Under the pieces are notes generated by a model. The model was not told where the DNA came from, searched no databases, and worked only from the letters and a program-made list of their open reading frames with translations. A DNA stretch of 7,616 bases from Muribaculaceae bacterium. GTDB lineage: Bacteria; Bacteroidota; Bacteroidia; Bacteroidales; Muribaculaceae. The position numbers and the translations under genes were made by a program. The stretch lies in assembly GCA_029060585.1 (NCBI GenBank), contig JAIDTS010000458.1, positions 1-7,616 of the forward strand, written 5' to 3'. The number at the start of each line of letters is the position of its first letter. Positions within the stretch are counted from its first letter, which is position 1. Shown here in pieces: positions 1 to 7,303 of the stretch.

Positions 1-39
1 GCCGCGGTCTTCCCCTCGTTGGCGTTAGGTTGGAAAATG

Positions 40-134
40 AAAAAAGCGTAGGAATCTGTATCTGTTGCCGTCCTACAACCTGAGGCTTCTCGCATTGCCC
101 TATCTATGTCGGACGGCAACGCAGAAGCCCACGC
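40..134 (-). terminator. Possible 3' terminator / switching domain of the structured RNA
   Basis: GCGTGGG (134-128) pairs with CCTACGC (52-46), enclosing a perfect 10-bp helix (120-111/73-64), and is followed directly by TTTTTT (45-40). The base of the stem plus U-tract resembles an intrinsic terminator, although the stem is much longer and more interrupted than usual. A competing 16-bp hairpin (130-115/99-83) would break this stem, so the segment could act as terminator and antiterminator, or could simply be the 3' domain of a stable RNA. Confidence 0.4.
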
Positions 135-389
135 TTGTATATGCAACGATAGCATCAAACCAGCCATCCTCACGGATGACAAGGCTGATGACGGATGTAG
201 CATATCCATATGGGCGTCTACCGTTGCTCAATCCTTGACATAGATAAGAAAAGTTTGCGAGACATTTCAGGTTGTCAAGAATCAGCGCGGATAAACGCTT
301 TCTATTATGTCTAACACGATGCCATTAATGAGCATCGAGGCAGTCCCTCCCGCTTTGACCCCAGACCGGGGCTTCTGAGAGACGGTCTG
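40..389 (-). ncRNA. Large structured non-coding RNA candidate (about 350 nt)
   Basis: No protein family is recognised here, but the minus strand carries many long helices (plus-strand coordinates): 389-383/368-362 (7 bp), 337-332/322-317 (6 bp), 282-273/240-231 (10 bp, one G-U), 227-218/152-143 (10 bp, one G-U), 180-174/169-163 (7 bp, capped by a GUGA tetraloop of GNRA type), 130-115/99-83 (16 bp, one bulge at 91), 120-111/73-64 (10 bp, perfect) and 134-128/52-46 (7 bp, one G-U). A consensus Bacteroidota promoter lies just upstream, and the last stem is followed by T6 at 45-40, so both ends of a transcript are suggested. The 16-bp helix cannot coexist with the 10-bp and 7-bp helices, which suggests a switch or pseudoknot. 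I looked for RNase P RNA, tmRNA and SRP RNA signatures and did not see them. Bacteroidales-1 RNA, known for a Bacteroidetes-type promoter and a terminator at its ends, is a possible family, but I could not verify this. A leader or riboswitch for a gene beyond the left edge is the alternative. Confidence 0.62.
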
Positions 390-395
390 CACCTG

Positions 396-427
396 CAAAA
401 TTATAATTTATTTTTGGATTCGCCAAA
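396..427 (-). promoter_or_regulatory. Bacteroidota sigma-A promoter for the structured RNA
   Basis: On the minus strand, TTTG (427-424) is followed after exactly 20 nt by TAATTTTG (403-396), a full match to the Bacteroidota housekeeping consensus TTTG / TAnnTTTG. Transcription would start around 391-387, at the base of the first hairpin of the structured RNA. The spacing and the perfect -7 box make this the clearest promoter in the window. Confidence 0.75.
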
Positions 428-465
428 TATGATCTGGTATTTTTTCAAAAACTTGATTGATTCAT

Positions 466-843
466 AACTCAAGTTTCGGATTTAGCCTCAACGTATGTGT
501 ATGGTCCCACGATATGAAAGAAATTAATCGCGCAGAGGAGCAGAGGGCTCGCCAAGTAATTGCAATTTCCATTAAGGCAGCAAAGCCCGCAAAGGCTCGC
601 TCGCTTCGCTCCGCATCGCAGGAATGAGGGAGCCCCGTCGAATAATCAGCCAAAGAATATTCTATCCAAAAGCTAAAGGAAACCTGCAATGCGGAGCGGA
701 TGCTAAGCGAGCCTCCGCGCACTTTGCTGCCTTTGACAGAATGGTGCCGGCAGAGTTGGAAAATTATCTCAGCGAGCCCTTTGCTCCTCTGCGCGATGTT
801 AATATTTATATGATAGGCTATTGCTATATTAGAAACTTAAGTT
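466..843. repeat. Long imperfect inverted repeat, MITE-like, about 378 nt
   Basis: Four blocks on the left reappear in reverse complement and reverse order on the right: 466-477 with 832-843 (11 of 12 bases), 527-552 with 772-797 (25 of 26), 574-601 with 706-733 (24 of 28) and 608-622 with 683-697 (14 of 15). About 60 nt lie between the innermost blocks. The outermost block gives short terminal inverted repeats (AACTCAAGTTTC against GAAACTTAAGTT). No transposase or credible gene is inside. The short open frames on both strands (462-722 and 624-848) read the two arms and give similar peptide fragments, as expected from a palindromic element. It may be a non-autonomous mobile element or two copies of an interspersed repeat inserted head to head. 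No clear target-site duplication was found. Confidence 0.65.
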
Positions 844-979
844 CATAATAGACCGGCCATATACAAAGGAAGATAAACGGAACCATCCTTTTTATCCAAA
901 TCCTTAGAGTGGAGTATATATGACTTTCCGATATAATTATAAAATCTTTCACCTTACGACAACCCGGCTATGCATAGGC
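844..979. other. AT-rich intergenic stretch with nothing recognised
   Basis: This stretch between the long inverted repeat and the GC-rich palindrome has no open frame of note, no tRNA-like fold and no repeat that I could see. It lies downstream of the DUF389 gene and probably marks the end of that transcription unit, but no T-tract terminator was found for it here. Confidence 0.4.
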
Positions 980-1000
980 GGACGCACGGGCCGTGCGTCC
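980..1000. repeat. GC-rich REP-like palindrome
   Basis: GGACGCACGG (980-989) and CCGTGCGTCC (991-1000) are perfect reverse complements around a single G, which gives a 9-bp hairpin with a 3-nt loop. It lies 29 nt past the DUF389 stop codon and is far richer in GC than its surroundings. There is no T-tract on either side, so it is not a canonical intrinsic terminator. It may protect the 3' end of the mRNA or be one copy of an interspersed palindromic repeat. Short GC-rich palindromes of this general kind are common in Bacteroidales intergenic DNA, as I recall, but the copy number here is not visible. Confidence 0.6.
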
Positions 1001-1029
1001 CTACATTAAGATGGGGTTTGAGATAGTAA

Positions 1030-2394
1030 TCAGTTGGTAGGGACTATCTTGATTGACTTTGTCGAGAGGCGCGCCTCGAGATATTTCAGGAATTTGTCGG
1101 ATTGAGTGGTGTTCATCGGTTTTGAGTAGCGCACGAGTGCGACATTTAGGGTATCGAGGCGCCTGGTGTCGACATTGCTTACTATGGCTCTGGTCACGGC
1201 TATGTCTGTGACTTCCGGAAACAATACTTTCAGCTCTGGCGATATCGTGGCTCCCATCGTGTCGTTGCGGCATATGTCGGCGTTTATGGCCCGTAAGGAG
1301 TCGATAGTCTCCCGCTGGCTGTTGATGGTATTCTGTGTCACCTGATACATGTCGCGCAGCATGGTAGACGTGGCTTGTGTGGCATCGAATATATTTTCAG
1401 GATTATCACCCTGGATGATCTTCAGGCGTGTGCCACCGAGATTGTAGTCAGGAAGTTTGTCAGTAAGAGCCAGAACGAGGGAATCTTGCGGAAGCACCTT
1501 GCCGATGAGGCTTACCGTAAGTGTCTTGTTGTTGCCTTTCATCTCTGCCGATGAGTGAAGCACCTGAGTGCCATCGAAGTTGAATTGCTGCTCCACGAAA
1601 CGCTGACAATTAACATTGAAAGCCGATTGCTGAAACATTCTCCATGTAAGATAACCGGCAGGAATCATTGTCAGGAGAGCTATGGTATATACGAGGTTTC
1701 GTACTCTCTTGGCACGTTGTGGATTAGAGAAGTCCTTGATATGGTATTTCATAAGCTTCACGCCGACAGTGGTGGCGCAGGCGATGAAGACTGAGTTTAT
1801 GAAGAAGAGGAAGAGGGCTCCGAAGAAATAATTCATCTGGAAAGTGGCGAGCCCGTAGCCGACTGTGCAGAGCGGGGGCATAAGGGCTGTAGCGATGGCA
1901 ACACCTGGGATGACATTTCCCTTTACCTTGCTGGCAATAGCCAAAATACCTGCAGATCCACCGAAGAAAGCGATGAATACGTCATAAATGGTAGGCGACG
2001 TACGGGCCAGCAGCTCGCTATGACCTTCATTTACGGGGGAGATGAGGAAGTATACGCAGGAGGTAATCACGCTGAAAAACGCCGCAGCCAGAAGGTTGCG
2101 GAAAGAACGCTTCATCAGGTCGAAATCCTGAATACCGACTGCGAGTCCGATACCGATTATCGGGCCCATCAGCGGCGAGATGAGCATCGCGCCGATAATG
2201 ACAGCCGTAGAGTTGGTGTTGAGGCCAAGCGACGCTATGAAAATGGCGATGATCAGGATTATGATGTTGGTGCCGCGGAAAGACACTCCCTCACGGATCA
2301 CGTTTTCCGCCTCTTCCTGCGGAAGCAGGTCGGCCGACAGATCGAAATAACCGGCAAGGCTATTCTTCAACTCCTTTAAATCAGGTAAGCTCAT
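1030..2394 (-). CDS. DUF389 family integral membrane protein
   Basis: A 454-residue inner-membrane protein of the DUF389 (TIGR00341-like) family, whose function is not established. The N-terminus (about 1-40) is soluble. About seven hydrophobic segments follow (roughly 43-59, 62-87, 98-118, 135-155, 160-183, 188-210, 231-252). The family's glycine/proline-rich motifs are present at 63-79 (TAVIIGAMLISPLMGPI) and 164-182 (GVAIATALMPPLCTVGYGL). The remaining 200 residues form a soluble C-terminal domain with a long helical, possibly coiled-coil stretch near 335-372. Many DUF389 proteins are mostly membrane, so this sizeable C-terminal domain is worth noting; similar Bacteroidales members may share it. 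The start ATG is followed by a sensible soluble N-terminus and sits about 20 nt below a TAAATTTG promoter box. It lies 51 nt downstream of the sigma gene on the same strand but probably has its own promoter. Family assignment is firm; the substrate is unknown. Confidence 0.9.
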   Translation of the reverse strand: MSLPDLKELKNSLAGYFDLSADLLPQEEAENVIREGVSFRGTNIIILIIAIFIASLGLNTNSTAVIIGAMLISPLMGPIIGIGLAVGIQDFDLMKRSFRNLLAAAFFSVITSCVYFLISPVNEGHSELLARTSPTIYDVFIAFFGGSAGILAIASKVKGNVIPGVAIATALMPPLCTVGYGLATFQMNYFFGALFLFFINSVFIACATTVGVKLMKYHIKDFSNPQRAKRVRNLVYTIALLTMIPAGYLTWRMFQQSAFNVNCQRFVEQQFNFDGTQVLHSSAEMKGNNKTLTVSLIGKVLPQDSLVLALTDKLPDYNLGGTRLKIIQGDNPENIFDATQATSTMLRDMYQVTQNTINSQRETIDSLRAINADICRNDTMGATISPELKVLFPEVTDIAVTRAIVSNVDTRRLDTLNVALVRYSKPMNTTQSDKFLKYLEARLSTKSIKIVPTN

Positions 2395-2416: not shown

Positions 2417-2448
2417 CAAATTTAGTAAAAAATCCCATTCCCCGCTCA
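2417..2448 (-). promoter_or_regulatory. Probable promoter of the DUF389 gene
   Basis: TAAATTTG (2424-2417, minus strand) matches the Bacteroidota -7 consensus TAnnTTTG fully. The upstream partner is weak: CTTG about 22 nt away, which overlaps the end of the sigma gene. The predicted start near 2410 leaves a leader of roughly 15-20 nt before the ATG at 2394, so the DUF389 gene can probably be transcribed independently of the sigma gene. Confidence 0.5.
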
Positions 2449-3048
2449 AGGTATAGGGGTGTGGTGGATTGCCAGCATGCCCAGAATAAGGACCACCATG
2501 GCCGTAGGCGTGCCGTCAGGGAAAGCAGAGCGTAGCATGGCGATCAGTCGGGCCTTCCGCTTCTTGACCGTAATCTCAGCCACTCCGAGACGCTCCGCGA
2601 TCTCGGAGTTCTTTAGTCCTTCCTCAAAACTCATCTCAAGCAGATCGCGCATTTCCTGTGGCAGCCCGTCAATGGCGGCATACAGACGCTGGAGGGTCTC
2701 CTGGCGGATGTAGTCGAGAAGAATATCCTCATGAAGTTCTCCGAGACCTATTACAAATTCCTGATATCGTTCCGATGCGTTTGAGTTGCGCAGATAACTG
2801 ATGGCCTTGTTTCGGATACAAGTTATCAAAAAAGCTTTCCACTGCGCGGCGGAGGTAAAGTCCGATCTTCGGCCATAAGCCTTCTCCACTGCGTTCTGTA
2901 CACAGTCTTCGGCCATAATCGACAGCTGCCCCGGAAGGCACGAACTGGCGTAGAGAATCATGTCGGCGTAGACATAAGTATAGAAATACTCAATATCACC
3001 TTCGATGAAACTCAAATAAGCCCTTTCTGTCAATTCTGTAGAAGCCAT
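2446..3048 (-). CDS. ECF-type RNA polymerase sigma factor (sigma-70 family)
   Basis: A 200-residue alternative sigma factor with the two-domain ECF layout. Region 2 covers about residues 12-88 and includes a recognisable DCVQNAVEKAY segment and the WKAFLITCIRNKAISYLRN helix used for -10 recognition. Region 4 covers about 118-176, with a helix-turn-helix at 145-173 (KNSEIAERLGVAEITVKKRK) that reads the -35 element. The last 20 residues contain a hydrophobic stretch (182-195, AMVVLILGMLAIHH), a tail seen in a number of Bacteroidota ECF factors and possibly contacting the membrane or an anti-sigma factor. In this phylum such factors are usually controlled by FecR proteins and drive SusC/SusD-type uptake genes. 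The only FecR in the window is about 3 kb away on the opposite strand, so the pairing is an inference. A consensus -7 box lies about 36 nt before the start codon. Confidence 0.92.
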   Translation of the reverse strand: MASTELTERAYLSFIEGDIEYFYTYVYADMILYASSCLPGQLSIMAEDCVQNAVEKAYGRRSDFTSAAQWKAFLITCIRNKAISYLRNSNASERYQEFVIGLGELHEDILLDYIRQETLQRLYAAIDGLPQEMRDLLEMSFEEGLKNSEIAERLGVAEITVKKRKARLIAMLRSAFPDGTPTAMVVLILGMLAIHHTPIP

Positions 3049-3083
3049 TTTCTAAAAAAATACGCAAAAGTGCATTCAAAAGA

Positions 3084-3091
3084 CAAAATTA
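3084..3091 (-). promoter_or_regulatory. -7 box of the sigma factor gene
   Basis: TAATTTTG on the minus strand matches TAnnTTTG exactly and lies 35 nt before the sigma start codon. No good TTTG partner is seen about 20 nt upstream; that position is a run of T ending in the terminator of the preceding gene. The sigma gene therefore looks to be transcribed from its own promoter, insulated by that terminator. Confidence 0.5.
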
Positions 3092-3104
3092 ACGAAAAAA
3101 TCCG

Positions 3105-3138
3105 AAAATAAAAAAGGTCCGGACATAAATCCGGACCC
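3105..3138 (-). terminator. Intrinsic terminator of the secreted repeat protein gene
   Basis: On the minus strand, GGTCCGGA (3137-3130) and TCCGGACC (3123-3116) form a perfect 8-bp stem with a 6-nt loop, followed by TTTTTT and a further T-rich run (3115-3105). It sits about 30 nt past the stop codon at 3169. On the plus strand no T-tract follows, so it works in the minus direction and separates this gene from the sigma gene. Confidence 0.88.
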
Positions 3139-3168
3139 AAATAGATGTTTAGGCGTATGCCTTCACGA

Positions 3169-4527
3169 TCATTTGATCACTTTTGTAGTCTTTCCATCTT
3201 GAACCTTGATGAATATGCCATTCTCGGGATTTGCCACACGTGCGCCCTGGAGGTTATAATATACGGGAGTGCCTGAGATTGCTGTGATGGAATCTACCGC
3301 ATCGTCTTCAACCGGCGTGGCAGCGAGCATGCCGGTGTTTACGTTGGATATACTGAAATTAAAGTTATACTTTCCTGCCTCAAGCGAGCACTTGAGCGCT
3401 TCTCCGCCCACTGCCAATGAAGAGAAGGGCATGGTATTGCTGAAATCGTTCGGAAGGAAAGCGGACAAGTCTGGGTTGTATCCGAACACATACACATTGT
3501 CCTGAGCCGCAACCGTCAGTTCGGCAGCCTCCTTAATTTCAACATCCTTCAAGACATAGATCAACGAGGTGTAGGATTCGGTCTCTCCAGTGTCTTCGTC
3601 TTCATATTCCTCTGTGATCTCCTGGCGGTCAAATTTATAGGCTTCGTCTGGCGTCTGGATTCCGTTTACTCCTACGAGATAGTATGCAAGCTCATCCTGT
3701 GGAGTCTGGTCTTCGCAGATCATGAACGATATCATCGTCATCGCACCGGCCATAGTGAGATTGACATCGTAGTATCCTTCCTTAAGCGAGCATTTCACGG
3801 GTGCGCCGTCAGCACCAAGAAAAGCCATCGGGTTCTCATCAGTCACATCGCCCATGGAGGCAAAAGTCTCGTCCTGTCCGAGGGTCACGTCCTGACCGGC
3901 ATTATATACGGTAAATCCTTCCTCGCATTCCGACACGAAATAGCGCGGCAGTGAATAAATGAAGTAAGTCTCGCCGTCCTCGGTATACTCGATCTTCTGG
4001 AAGCAGCATGCGGCTGAGGGTTCTGTATAGTCGTTGAATCCAAGAAGATAAAGTTGTTCTGTTGGCTCCTCGCTGTTGAGCGACTTTATCTGCAGGATCC
4101 ACGTGTCACCTCCCATGTCGCCCTCCACGTCCTCGAAAAGGGCAACCATTACCTGATATGAGCCTTCGGAAAGATTGTATTTTATTGCAGGGCCATCCTG
4201 TGCCATATATATCATGCTCTGCGAGGAAGTCAGGTCGTTGGTGAACCCGAACTGGTTGTCTTCGTCAAATCCGAGGCTGAAGGATGCTCCGTCGCTTACT
4301 GTCACCGTTCCTTCGGCAGCTGTAAGATTGACCTCAGGGAGCGACCAGCGCCAAATCCCCTCGTCGATGTCATCCTCGTCGCGCTCTCCGAGCACCAGAA
4401 GATTAGCTTCGGAAGGAGTGGTGTCTCCGTTAAGTCCGAGAATATACAGGTTTCCTTCCGGTGCGGCGGCCTGAAGGGATACGGCACTGCAGAGAATGCC
4501 GGAGATCAGCAGTAGATTTTTTTTCAT
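3169..4527 (-). CDS. Secreted acidic protein with three tandem repeats and a T9SS-like C-terminal tail
   Basis: The start chosen is the ATG at 4527 (452 residues), because it gives a clean signal peptide: MKKN, a hydrophobic core, then a predicted cut after LQA at residue 20. The longer open frame adds 21 residues that would spoil the signal. The mature part has three similar units of roughly 120-130 residues. They open with LYILGLNGDTTPSEA (27-41), LYLLGFNDYTEPSAA (159-173) and YYLVGVNGIQTPDEA (282-296), and end with GPAIKYNLSEGSYQV (112-126), GAPVKCSLKEGYYDV (241-255) and GEALKCSLEAGKYNF (375-389). The protein is rich in Asp and Glu. The C-terminus (about 412-452), with YYNLQGARV and GIFIKVQDGKTTKVIK, resembles the tails of Bacteroidales proteins sorted by, or derived from, the type IX secretion system. 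Function is unknown; a beta-rich surface or binding protein is my inference. It is divergently transcribed from the TlpA-FecR-SusC genes. Confidence 0.85.
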   Translation of the reverse strand: MKKNLLLISGILCSAVSLQAAAPEGNLYILGLNGDTTPSEANLLVLGERDEDDIDEGIWRWSLPEVNLTAAEGTVTVSDGASFSLGFDEDNQFGFTNDLTSSQSMIYMAQDGPAIKYNLSEGSYQVMVALFEDVEGDMGGDTWILQIKSLNSEEPTEQLYLLGFNDYTEPSAACCFQKIEYTEDGETYFIYSLPRYFVSECEEGFTVYNAGQDVTLGQDETFASMGDVTDENPMAFLGADGAPVKCSLKEGYYDVNLTMAGAMTMISFMICEDQTPQDELAYYLVGVNGIQTPDEAYKFDRQEITEEYEDEDTGETESYTSLIYVLKDVEIKEAAELTVAAQDNVYVFGYNPDLSAFLPNDFSNTMPFSSLAVGGEALKCSLEAGKYNFNFSISNVNTGMLAATPVEDDAVDSITAISGTPVYYNLQGARVANPENGIFIKVQDGKTTKVIK

Positions 4528-4687
4528 GTCGACAGTTTTTATAATTACGATTTTACTGAAATACGCATTCTTTATGAGAAGGTATATCAAAAAAAGGGAA
4601 TTTTTAAAAAAAATATCAATTCAGGTATACTTAAGCATAGATACTGCGTATTTAGGTTACTGAACCAAAACTATAAAAACCGAAATT
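4528..4687. promoter_or_regulatory. Divergent promoter region between the repeat protein and tlpA-like genes
   Basis: This 160-nt AT-rich region must contain both start sites. I find no full TTTG/TAnnTTTG pair in either direction, unlike the sigma, DUF389 and RNA promoters, which would fit use of an alternative sigma factor. Both genes share ATAAAAAC(T/C)G placed exactly 5 nt before the ATG (4542-4533 on the minus strand, 4673-4682 on the plus strand). This may be a translation-enhancing A-rich leader, since Bacteroidota rarely use Shine-Dalgarno sites, or a common regulatory element. A small GGTT-4-AACC inverted repeat lies at 4655-4666. Confidence 0.5.
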
Positions 4688-6103
4688 ATGAGACATCAGA
4701 CAATCTTAGGCGCTTCTTTCGTTATTGGCCTTATGTTGGCGGGAGCCTGCTCGGGCAGTCAGGGGCATGTTGACGGAATCGCCCTTCAAGGTACAATCGC
4801 AAACGACAGCATAGAAGACTTCGTGCTTTCCTATAATGAAGATGGCGACATGCTTCGCTACCGTACCATTGAGCTCCAGCGTGATGCCCAAGGAAGATTC
4901 CAGATTCCGGACTCGCTGATACCGGAGGGGGGCACCAACGCCACTTTAATGGCGGATTCTGAAGGATATTGGGGTGTGTACCTTGAGCCGGGAAAGACCG
5001 TGACAGTGGATATCACCGGCAATCCGGCCTCAGGTTATCAGATATCTTTCTCGGGTGAGAATGCCGACTTAAGTGATGTCTACAATACTATTGCTACCAC
5101 ATATGATATAATGATCTACTCACCGCAGGATCCCGAGGCACGCATGACTACGGAAGAGGCACTCAAGCGTCTGGAATCAGACAGGAAGAAGGTAGACGAA
5201 AAGGTGGCGACAATCGGCGACAAGGACAAGAAGGCATATTATTCAGAACTGGCATCCATGTTGTCGAAGCGTATGGAGGGTTTCATCTACGAGGATGCCG
5301 CCTATGAGCAGGATGCCGAGCCATGGGAAGATACAAGATACTCTTCTCTGATCGAGGGGATCGATCCCAACTCTGACGCTGCTCTTGAATCCGGCATGAT
5401 CTTCCTCTGGCTCAACGGGAAATCATATGCCGACGGATCGCCCGATGGATATGCAAAGAGCCTGGCACAGCTGAAGATGGTAGATGAAAAAATCAGCAAT
5501 CCTCGTACGCGCAAGGTACTCTACCATATGATGCCCCACCAGTTTTTCGCCTATACCAAGCCGACTCCCGAAGATGCGGCTGAATTCATGAAAGGATACT
5601 CGGAGCTTGCCAAAGACTACCCTGAATTAATAGACACCTATACGCTTCAGGCGCAGGGAGTGAAGGTGGTGGAGGCCGGAGAGCCGCTCAGGTTCGATCC
5701 CGTCATCGCTACTACCGACGGAAAGACCTGTAAACTGTCGGAACTTTTCGGAAAGGTGCTTTATATCGATTTCTGGGCTACATGGTGCGGACCATGCCGC
5801 AAGCAGATTCCTCATCTCGAGAAGCTTGTAGAACGCATGAAAGATGTGGAAGGTATAGAATTCATCTCAATCTCTTGCGACACAGATGTAGATGCATGGA
5901 AGGCCCTCGTGGCCAAGGATAAGCCGACATGGCCCCAGTATATCTTTGCCGAAGGTCAGGGCGATGCTTTCATGAGCGCGATGAACATCACCGGCATTCC
6001 GAGATTCATGATAATCGGCAAAGACGGTAAGCTCATCGCTCCCGAAGCGATGATGCCGTCCGACTCGAAGTTGGAAGAACAGCTCCGTTCCCTCGTAAAA
6101 TAA
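4688..6103 (+). CDS. TlpA-like thioredoxin-fold lipoprotein
   Basis: A 471-residue protein that begins with a lipoprotein signal peptide; the hydrophobic segment ends in LMLAGAC, with Cys21 as the likely lipidated residue. No acidic run follows the cysteine, so export to the cell surface is not suggested and the protein probably faces the periplasm. Residues about 30-125 form a beta-rich domain like the DUF4369 domain often found ahead of TlpA domains in Bacteroidota. Residues about 125-330 are mostly helical. Residues about 335-471 are a TlpA/AhpC-type thioredoxin domain with the redox motif WCGPC (366-370; Cys367 and Cys370) and a cis-proline at 438 (TGIP). Such proteins reduce or isomerise disulfides in envelope proteins. 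It is the first gene of an apparent operon, with fecR starting 18 nt after its stop. Standing upstream of FecR is unusual, because that is where the sigma gene normally lies. Confidence 0.9.
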   Translation: MRHQTILGASFVIGLMLAGACSGSQGHVDGIALQGTIANDSIEDFVLSYNEDGDMLRYRTIELQRDAQGRFQIPDSLIPEGGTNATLMADSEGYWGVYLEPGKTVTVDITGNPASGYQISFSGENADLSDVYNTIATTYDIMIYSPQDPEARMTTEEALKRLESDRKKVDEKVATIGDKDKKAYYSELASMLSKRMEGFIYEDAAYEQDAEPWEDTRYSSLIEGIDPNSDAALESGMIFLWLNGKSYADGSPDGYAKSLAQLKMVDEKISNPRTRKVLYHMMPHQFFAYTKPTPEDAAEFMKGYSELAKDYPELIDTYTLQAQGVKVVEAGEPLRFDPVIATTDGKTCKLSELFGKVLYIDFWATWCGPCRKQIPHLEKLVERMKDVEGIEFISISCDTDVDAWKALVAKDKPTWPQYIFAEGQGDAFMSAMNITGIPRFMIIGKDGKLIAPEAMMPSDSKLEEQLRSLVK

Positions 6104-6121
6104 AACATATCATAACGATTA

Positions 6122-7303
6122 ATGAATACCGAGCGAATAATCGACATACTCTGCAAGCTACTCTCCGGCGGCCGACTGACTGCCGGAGAGCAGGCTTTTC
6201 TTGACTCGTGGATAGCAGAGAACCCTGAGAAGCGCCGGGCTCTTTTGGATAGTGTTTTCGATCCGAAGCGTATCGCCGAGGATTACCGCATGAGGTCAAT
6301 GATCGACCCATCCCGTCCGATGGCTGAGATGAAGCGTCGTCTCGGTATAGAGGGGGACGTATATGCGGAAGGTCATGACTCTCCGCGACGTAAAGGAATC
6401 TCGATCAAGCATGTTGTCTCGTTCGCGGCAGCCTCTATCGCGATTCTTGCAGGAATCTTCTTTTTGTATAAGGAAAACCGCAATATGCCGGAGCGTCCAT
6501 CTGTAGCCATCGCCTCGGAGAGTCAGCTTCCGCTTCGGATTGAAAATCTCGGACCCGGTGGTTCGCGTGCGGTTGTGACTACCGAAAAGGGAGACACAAT
6601 CCATCTTTCAGACCCGGCGACCGCAAGATATATAGCTGAAAAGGCCGAGGAGGGGCCATTGCAGATCGACGTGCCTCGAGGCGGAGAGTTCGTGGTCACG
6701 CTCGAAGACAGTACCCGGGTATGGCTAAACTCGGAGTCGAAACTGATATATCCGGCTCGATTCGCATCCGGTTCGCGAAAAGTGGAGCTTGAGGGAGAGG
6801 CATATTTCGATGTGGCGAAGAATCCCGAAGCTCCGTTCATCGTAGAGGCCGCGGGTCAGCGGGTCAAGGTCTACGGCACAGAATTCAATATCCGTGCGTA
6901 TCCGGAAGATGCAATGGTCTATACTACGTTGAGCAGCGGAAGCATATCCCTGACTCCTACCACGGGAGGAGGCGAGGTGTTCATATCTCCGGGAAAGCAG
7001 GCGATGTTTGACAAGGAGACCGCCAAGGCTGCGATCCGCAATGTCGACATCGAGCACGTGACGGGGTGGCGCCACGGCCGCTTTGTATTCGAGGAGCAGT
7101 CTTTAAGGCAGATAATGAGAGACCTCAGCCGTTGGTATGATTTCAAGTATGAATTCGCCGACGAAGACGCTGCCGAGACAATATTCATGGGAAGTATACC
7201 GCGCTACAGCAACTTCAAGACGGCCATAGCGATTCTTGAGAAGTCAGGCGGACTCTCCTTTAAGGTAAAGGACAATCTAATCTTAATTTCCTCGCAACCA
7301 TAG
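6122..7303 (+). CDS. FecR family anti-sigma factor / signal transducer
   Basis: A 393-residue inner-membrane protein that normally relays a signal from an outer-membrane TonB-dependent receptor to a cytoplasmic ECF sigma factor. Residues 1-90 form the cytoplasmic anti-sigma part. One transmembrane segment covers about 97-116, after the basic stretch RRKGISIK, so the rest is periplasmic. The FecR domain lies at about 180-275 and carries the family pattern VPRGGEFVVTLEDSTRVWLN, followed by ELEGEAYFDV and an EFNIRAY segment. The C-terminal DUF4974-type domain (about 317-390, from WRHGRFVFEEQSL to LSFKVKDNLILI) resembles an STN fold and probably docks with the receptor. It follows the TlpA-like gene by 18 nt and precedes the SusC-like gene by 20 nt. 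No sigma gene adjoins it. The length is normal for the family and no domain is missing. Confidence 0.94.
   Translation: MNTERIIDILCKLLSGGRLTAGEQAFLDSWIAENPEKRRALLDSVFDPKRIAEDYRMRSMIDPSRPMAEMKRRLGIEGDVYAEGHDSPRRKGISIKHVVSFAAASIAILAGIFFLYKENRNMPERPSVAIASESQLPLRIENLGPGGSRAVVTTEKGDTIHLSDPATARYIAEKAEEGPLQIDVPRGGEFVVTLEDSTRVWLNSESKLIYPARFASGSRKVELEGEAYFDVAKNPEAPFIVEAAGQRVKVYGTEFNIRAYPEDAMVYTTLSSGSISLTPTTGGGEVFISPGKQAMFDKETAKAAIRNVDIEHVTGWRHGRFVFEEQSLRQIMRDLSRWYDFKYEFADEDAAETIFMGSIPRYSNFKTAIAILEKSGGLSFKVKDNLILISSQP

Follow-up and report, generated by a model that had tools for sequence, protein, structure and literature searches.

Muribaculaceae are common gut bacteria, and to our knowledge little is known about how they control their surface and accessory proteins. 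The stretch of Muribaculaceae DNA analysed here (7,616 nt, hereafter the window) carries at one end, on the minus strand, a region that a first-pass annotation had described as an RNA running from about 389 to 40, with its own promoter and a terminator-like end. What kind of RNA is this, where does it end, and how might it act on the gene that follows?

As far as sequence can tell, the minus-strand structured RNA is real, but position 40 is not its end. The strong structure claimed for it is borne out by the folding energy: the minus strand from 389 to 38 reaches -141.4 kcal/mol, compared with a shuffled mean of -104.1 (z -6.46; 0 of 100 shuffles as low). Half of the claim of "own promoter and terminator-like end" also stands. 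The -7 box TAATTTTG at 403-396 and the TTTG at 427-424 agree with the Bacteroidota promoter consensus TAnnTTTG/TTTG given in PMC7366714, a promoter type to which the sigma-70 scan used here is blind, and transcription would be expected to start at about 386-389. The terminator end fell: close homologues are similar down to position 1 and continue into an open reading frame (ORF), the conserved leader runs beyond the U-run as far as the start codon, and a terminator scan found no simple terminators in window 1-1200. The parts of the leader are as follows.

424-427, minus strand: -33 TTTG promoter element; a TTG lies 15-25 nt upstream of the box in 92 of the 129 copies with a TAnnTTTG box (raw count)
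396-403, minus strand: -7 box TAATTTTG (TAnnTTTG); present 38-185 nt upstream of the core in 129 of 137 copies, against a background of 73 of 1055 downstream 147-nt stretches
302-389, minus strand: 5′ domain of variable length, with a hairpin CAGACCG/CGGUCUG in the window; from homologue alignments and folding
43-301, minus strand: core, closed by P1 (301-296/48-43) and h12 (293-290/62-59); cells paired in 102 copies, P1 96.5% and h12 98.8%
40-45, minus strand: U-run; at least 6 T in 7 nt at the same place in 105 of 137 copies, missing in the other 32
1-23, minus strand: conserved tail GCC...GCGGC, located after the U-run and before the start codon of a gene that, for the window copy, is outside the window; loose tail pattern together with the promoter box in 72 of 140 hits

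A protein-coding frame at 209-1, which the first-pass annotation had set against the RNA reading, was rejected: of 129 homologues, 13 have it open, compared with 4 and 11 for the remaining frames, and a start codon survives in 6.

It is the homologues that show the leader position, the promoter box, the rod and the copy number, and by their sequences the element belongs to a family of 5′ leaders that occurs in many copies and has no match in Rfam. With window 1-440 as a blastn query, all 8 genomes reached through homologous loci gave 2-12 matches each, some of them partial. A sequence-only profile built from 22 copies (R1; cut-off E 0.001) matched 135 of 149 genomes of G001's family (Muribaculaceae), with at least 697 matches among those listed, a median of 4 and a maximum of 16 per genome; these counts are probably low, because 13 candidate stretches were scored per genome with stricter filters. 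An order-wide draw gave R1 matches in 26 of 247 genomes, including G001, G014, G020 and G029 from the search of G001's family, and a phylum-wide draw in 1 of 296, G001 itself. In a second family, that of G207, 17 of 18 genomes were matched, with up to 21 matches in one. For copy-level analysis 140 distinct hits were extracted. The copy L130 (G066:C7:35267-35586; 320 nt) is about 60 nt longer than the others and was split by the profile into overlapping L130 and L130b; its extra length would be an insertion or internal duplication.

The genes behind the leader follow at a narrow distance. An ORF of at least 50 aa starts on the same strand within 170 nt past the U-run in 118 of 134 copies (median 54 nt; 92 of the 118 at 40-80 nt), compared with 50 of 134 for an opposite-strand upstream control, and one of at least 100 aa in 96 of 132 copies, compared with 36% at random same-strand anchors. 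TAnnTTTG occurs between U-run and ORF in 2 of 118 copies, about chance for so short a stretch, and thus gives no sign of a second promoter of that type. In Bacteroides thetaiotaomicron, according to PMC7366714, 5′ UTRs have a median length of 32 nt and exceed 100 nt in 13.5% of mRNAs, so a leader of this length is unusual.

By annotation from sequence, the downstream genes are diverse and rich in secreted proteins. A Pfam scan of 106 downstream proteins returned 45 families, which provided no single common pathway; the commonest was the BspA-type LRR_5 (17 proteins), and DUF6567 occurred in 3. Under a crude rule, a signal-peptide-like start was found in 52 of 77 downstream ORFs of at least 150 aa and in 92 of 336 control ORFs, a contrast that is probably inflated because the controls are open frames rather than curated genes. 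Similar ORF starts recur behind different leaders (L047, L049 and L150; L032, L072, L095 and L130), as they do in the second family behind L182, L184, L187, L188, L194 and L196, whose ORFs we take to resemble small DNA-binding regulators. Defence genes were rejected as a shared theme: 9 PADLOC families were found, each in 1 of the 106 proteins.

A functional link to the DUF389 gene adjacent to the element in the window was also rejected. The DUF389 protein was found at 27 loci (best full-length match 95% identical, a Muribaculaceae record), of which only 4 carry a copy in the flanks examined, several contigs being short (L001, L005, L021 and a 24-bit fragment in L007), so that this neighbour looks incidental. 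The copy in L001 is 92% identical and occupies the same position beside DUF389; it is followed by a 73-aa ORF and then by a 336-aa ORF with a lipoprotein-like start. In L005, an ORF at 2914-3816 that presumably resembles a REP-associated transposase and a RhuM-like ORF at 3932-4933 stand before the copy at 5161-5605.

The window holds further features outside the leader. Positions 515-810 form a nested inverted-repeat element (arms 527-552/772-797, 574-601/706-733 and 607-622/683-698), MITE-like, pieces of which gave 13 matches in G001 and 26 in G003 at E 1e-6 (both strands of one place sometimes counted) and none in 6 other genomes. A palindrome around ACTTAAGT at 827-850 separates this element from the DUF389 gene. 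On the minus strand at 3109-3162, a strong hairpin GGUCCGGAUUUAUGUCCGGACC followed by U6 makes a good simple terminator behind the gene at 3169-4590, and coincides with a below-cut-off Rfam match to SorY. The region 2446-7303 contains a sigma-70 family (ECF-like) gene (2446-3048), a thioredoxin-like gene (4688-6103) and FecR (6122-7303), and between them 3169-4590 encodes a protein of 473 aa that is probably secreted and matches no Pfam family.

Does the RNA belong to a class already described? Rfam searches returned no match to the element up to E 10 (a small search); its counterparts in homologous loci also gave none, in 16 loci at E up to 5 and in a further 20 at E up to 1. Group I and II intron models did not match the element either. 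The first-pass annotation had excluded RNase P, tmRNA and SRP by eye and had offered Bacteroidales-1, a 6S-like RNA or an undescribed class instead. The exclusion holds, ARAGORN also having found 0 tRNA or tmRNA genes, and so, as far as Rfam goes, does the undescribed class. The two named identities are not supported. Bacteroidales-1 (RF01693) did not match the element up to E 10, and of 10 genomes tested 6 have the true family at a separate locus, with 5 of these matches above the cut-off. Neither 6S nor 6S-Flavo (RF01685) matched up to E 10; a separate 6S-Flavo locus was found in 0 of 5 genomes, with control genomes equally silent. A below-cut-off TPP riboswitch match (36.9 of 54.3 bits) at L163 1924-2018 lies on the other strand, apart from the leader. 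That the element is the leader of a family not in Rfam is, in our judgement, highly probable.

Comparison of the copies strongly supports a long nested rod as the fold of the core. This rod, termed state A, comprises P1, h12, h3, h4, h5, h10 and h11; its parts other than P1 and h12 are as follows.

268-275, minus strand: 5′ strand of h3 (pairs 82-75); 5 of 8 pairs above every null in all four covariation runs
75-82, minus strand: 3′ strand of h3; same basis
256-264, minus strand: 5′ strand of h4 (pairs 94-87), UCUCGCA, one base bulging out in the window; 4 pairs above every null in 151 core copies
87-94, minus strand: 3′ strand of h4; same basis
237-246, minus strand: 5′ strand of h5 (pairs 110-101); 4 pairs above every null in 100 full-length copies
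101-110, minus strand: 3′ strand of h5; same basis
223-234, minus strand: 5′ strand of h10 (234-233/111-112 and 227-223/116-120), partner of strand 120-111 within the rod; in 102 copies 98-99.5% of cells are paired
212-215, minus strand: h11, base of the rod tip (pairs 130-127); 98.8% paired, and in one pair both bases changed in 16 sequences
135-211, minus strand: variable rod tip with a GNRA-capped hairpin; 83 of 102 copies, shuffled mean 5.6

RNAalifold, given 102 copies and no manual input, returned the same nested rod with an open tip. In these copies 94.5% of state A cells are paired, compared with 83.6% after shuffling, 26 of 52 pairs changed on both sides, and the covariation score is 0.337, compared with 0.137 shuffled (sd 0.004) and at most 0.088 slid. 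Covariation was then assessed with a script modelled on the R-scape idea, in which observed alignments are compared with alignments simulated on the tree (tree-based null). Among 133 core copies, 6 pairs were reached by 0 of 40 nulls, 5 in h3 and 1 in h5; among 100 full-length copies, 9 pairs lay above every null, all in h3 and h5. With 151 core copies, including the second family, 12 pairs were reached by 0 of 60 nulls, 9 of them in h3 and h4; three non-helix pairs (264-89, 261-87 and 113-110) also lay above every null, and indirect signals therefore pass the tree-based test. When helix segments were placed by anchor, 6 pairs lay above every null, 5 in h3 and 1 in h4. Three h4 pairs in that alignment had E 0, 0.05 and 0.27, and the best h5 pair, in a ragged part of it, E 0.083; the best h5 pairs in the 151 core copies had E 0.067 and 0.13. 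P1, h12 and h10 were not significant against the tree-based null in either of these two alignments.

At four h3 pairs, A-U, U-A, G-C and C-G are all well represented, h4 in L047 reads CUGGAAA/UUUCCAG, and in 102 copies 2 of 4 h12 pairs changed on both sides and G-U pairs are found throughout the helices. Partner-swap z values are 18.3 for h5, 17.7 for h4, 10.9 for h2 and 1.2 for h1. The same helices are readable by eye in the second family, where h2 is UUUUGAC/GUCAAAA.

These results redraw the earlier structure without discarding it. Its GNRA-capped hairpin is present in the window and recurs: a GNRA-capped stem of at least 4 bp occurs in the tip as often as listed above. Of its two long-range 10-bp helices, 282-273/240-231 keeps its inner 8 pairs (281-274/239-232, here h2), which are paired in 89-99% of 151 copies, whereas 227-218/152-143 is not conserved and was rejected (5.74 of 10 pairs in 132 copies, 5.75 partner-swapped, z -0.1). 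The best-supported helices, h3 (275-268/82-75), h4 (264-256/94-87) and h5 (246-237/110-101), lay outside the earlier proposal. Fold, promoter, GNRA hairpin and the inner part of one long helix thus survive from that description; the second long helix and the end at 40 do not.

A second set of pairings, state B, is suggested by strands that also have partners elsewhere.

111-120, minus strand: shared strand GUUGCCGUCC, pairing with 234-223 (rod) or 73-64 (h8); 7 of 9 h8 pairs changed on both sides (helix row 251-259/302-311), partner-swap z 12.3
64-73, minus strand: 3′ strand of h8, GGACGGCAAC, the second partner of 120-111; same basis
274-281, minus strand: 5′ strand of h2 (pairs 239-232), its bases shared with h3, h5 and h10; in 102 copies 98.9% paired over 7 pairs and 97.1% in the eighth
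232-239, minus strand: 3′ strand of h2; same basis
128-134, minus strand: 5′ strand of h9, GCGUGGG (pairs 52-46, beside the U-run); 97.8% paired in 102 copies, nearly invariant
46-52, minus strand: 3′ strand of h9, CCUACGC; same basis

Across its positions h8 is paired in 93-99% of 132 copies, and as many as five pair types occur. In the alignment of 102 copies, two of its pairs are broken in 21 and 22, and in wider alignments they are 58-63% paired, probably through an indel shift. The h2 pair 275-238 is U-A in place of A-U in L083 and L103, and h9 is so nearly invariant that its covariation is uninformative (partner-swap z 0.8). Two-sided changes affect 41 cells over the whole of state B, compared with 8.1 shuffled and at most 19 slid, the shuffle and partner-swap controls ignoring kinship. 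State B pairing (97.4%, shuffled 96.5%) and score (0.173, shuffled 0.159) show a slight excess, the pairing barely above shuffles because the sequence is mostly conserved; against the tree-based null, h2, h8 and h9 were not significant in the 151 core copies or in the anchor-placed alignment.

Judged by geometry, h8 would be incompatible with the rod, because the 37-nt loop that it closes would contain the 3′ strands of h5, h4 and h3. The minimum free energy fold of the window core is state A (-109.3 kcal/mol; state B forced, -100.0), and forced folding gives state A the lower energy in 92 of 133 copies (average difference -3.6 kcal/mol, sd 9.1), with the state A constraint weakened by ragged h5 columns. 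A local hairpin, 76-71/53-48 (z 9.6; best pair E 0.75), would be a third possible stem before the U-run. With 94.5% of the cells of one set and 97.4% of the other paired, the two may represent exclusive states of a switch.

We propose the following model. Transcription would start at about 386-389 and produce an mRNA whose 5′ leader has many paralogues; the RNA would fold into a long rod with a GNRA tip, pass the U-run and enter the gene about 54 nt further on. In state A the rod would be complete. In state B, h2 would form early, 111-120 would pair with 64-73, and 128-134 would pair with 46-52 against the U-run. Which of the two forms would set the share of RNA polymerases that terminate at the U-run or continue into the gene, so that the two states would act as a switch with termination as the readout of any driving signal. 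We give a leader that switches and acts at the U-run about an even chance. A simple metabolite riboswitch is argued against because the downstream genes are mixed. It is tempting to speculate further that the family is a reusable plug-in two-state leader before unrelated genes, often for surface or secreted proteins, through which one signal or factor tunes the accessory repertoire in Muribaculaceae and at least one more family; this wider idea is possible, but we hold it only tentatively.

Other mechanisms would use the same leader differently. The rod with its GNRA tip may bind a protein or change RNA polymerase, with a bound factor permitting read-through by processive antitermination and no switch at all. 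One promoter-proximal element before many unrelated genes, with a recurring tip hairpin, speaks for such an adaptor over a metabolite sensor, as does the fact that the covariation surviving the tree-based null lies entirely in the rod, bar the three non-helix pairs; yet 111-120 keeps h8 as a second partner, with two-sided changes in most of its pairs (kinship ignored), which a single fold would not need, and we consider this reading rather unlikely. The leader could instead control mRNA stability or translation, by shielding the 5′ end or governing access to the start codon, with no terminator involved. The tight spacing to the start codon, the conserved tail directly before it in many copies and the possibility of explaining the U-run as the 3′ strand of P1 would all fit. 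However, the tail shows no excess of pairing with the 5′ domain (5.53, partner-swapped 5.49) and no excess of hairpins (5.82, shuffled 5.83), and we regard this as unlikely.

Two further explanations dispense with the leader altogether. An autonomous small RNA would end at the U-run, the ORF behind it being expressed from elsewhere. The promoter box and the U-run do stand at fixed places, but an ORF follows in most copies, mostly at tight spacing, a second TAnnTTTG box (the one promoter type sought) is almost always absent between them, and sequence conservation extends past the U-run; the small RNA is thus improbable. Still less credible, and in our view very improbable, is a DNA element that moves or recombines, with palindromes that act at the DNA level and an RNA that is incidental. 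Many dispersed copies before different genes, the repeated inverted-repeat element near the window copy and, in L005, the putatively transposase-like ORF about 2.2 kb before the copy would suit it. Against it, promoter box and start codon frame most copies, G-U pairs run through the helices, window 1-900 has 0 matches to plasmids or phages at E 1e-5, and one exact 26-mer has none in viral contigs.

Hundreds of copies, a covariation-backed fold and the lack of an Rfam entry together offer a direct handle on one RNA before many genes, and a family model would annotate several hundred loci together. If the switching model is right, one signal or factor might tune a whole accessory-gene repertoire through a shared leader module, which may decide whether the gene behind it is read.

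In the titles and abstract openings searched, largely of open-access papers, we found no published description of this leader family. Bacteroidales-1 RNA is similarly a structured RNA of Bacteroidales with unknown role, listed with cis-regulation uncertain in PMC2864571, but it has a 179-position model and, in 6 of 10 genomes tested, a single match at a locus of its own. 6S RNA shares the long rod-like hairpin, whereas the present leader has many copies, a fixed spacing upstream of ORFs and no Rfam match. OLE, GOLLD, ROOL and other large ornate RNAs (PMC12286853) are likewise large and complex, with functions unknown or partly known; unlike them, this family is a 5′ leader at many loci, without an Rfam match. 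The put, EAR and LoaP-dependent processive antitermination leaders are also promoter-proximal, and like them this RNA could license read-through of very different genes, although it has no Rfam match. Attenuators and attenuator-type riboswitches resemble it in being 5′ leaders with an elaborate fold and a U-run before the gene, and in two exclusive pairings, which are candidates here. By position, 118 of 134 copies do lie in the 5′ leader of a gene, that of the window copy being outside the window; the leader differs from such riboswitches in its length of about 390 nt, in its many copies per genome and in the lack of a common pathway among its genes. The element may be described as a large leader RNA that occurs in many copies and is absent from Rfam, and which would be attenuator-like if the switch reading is right.
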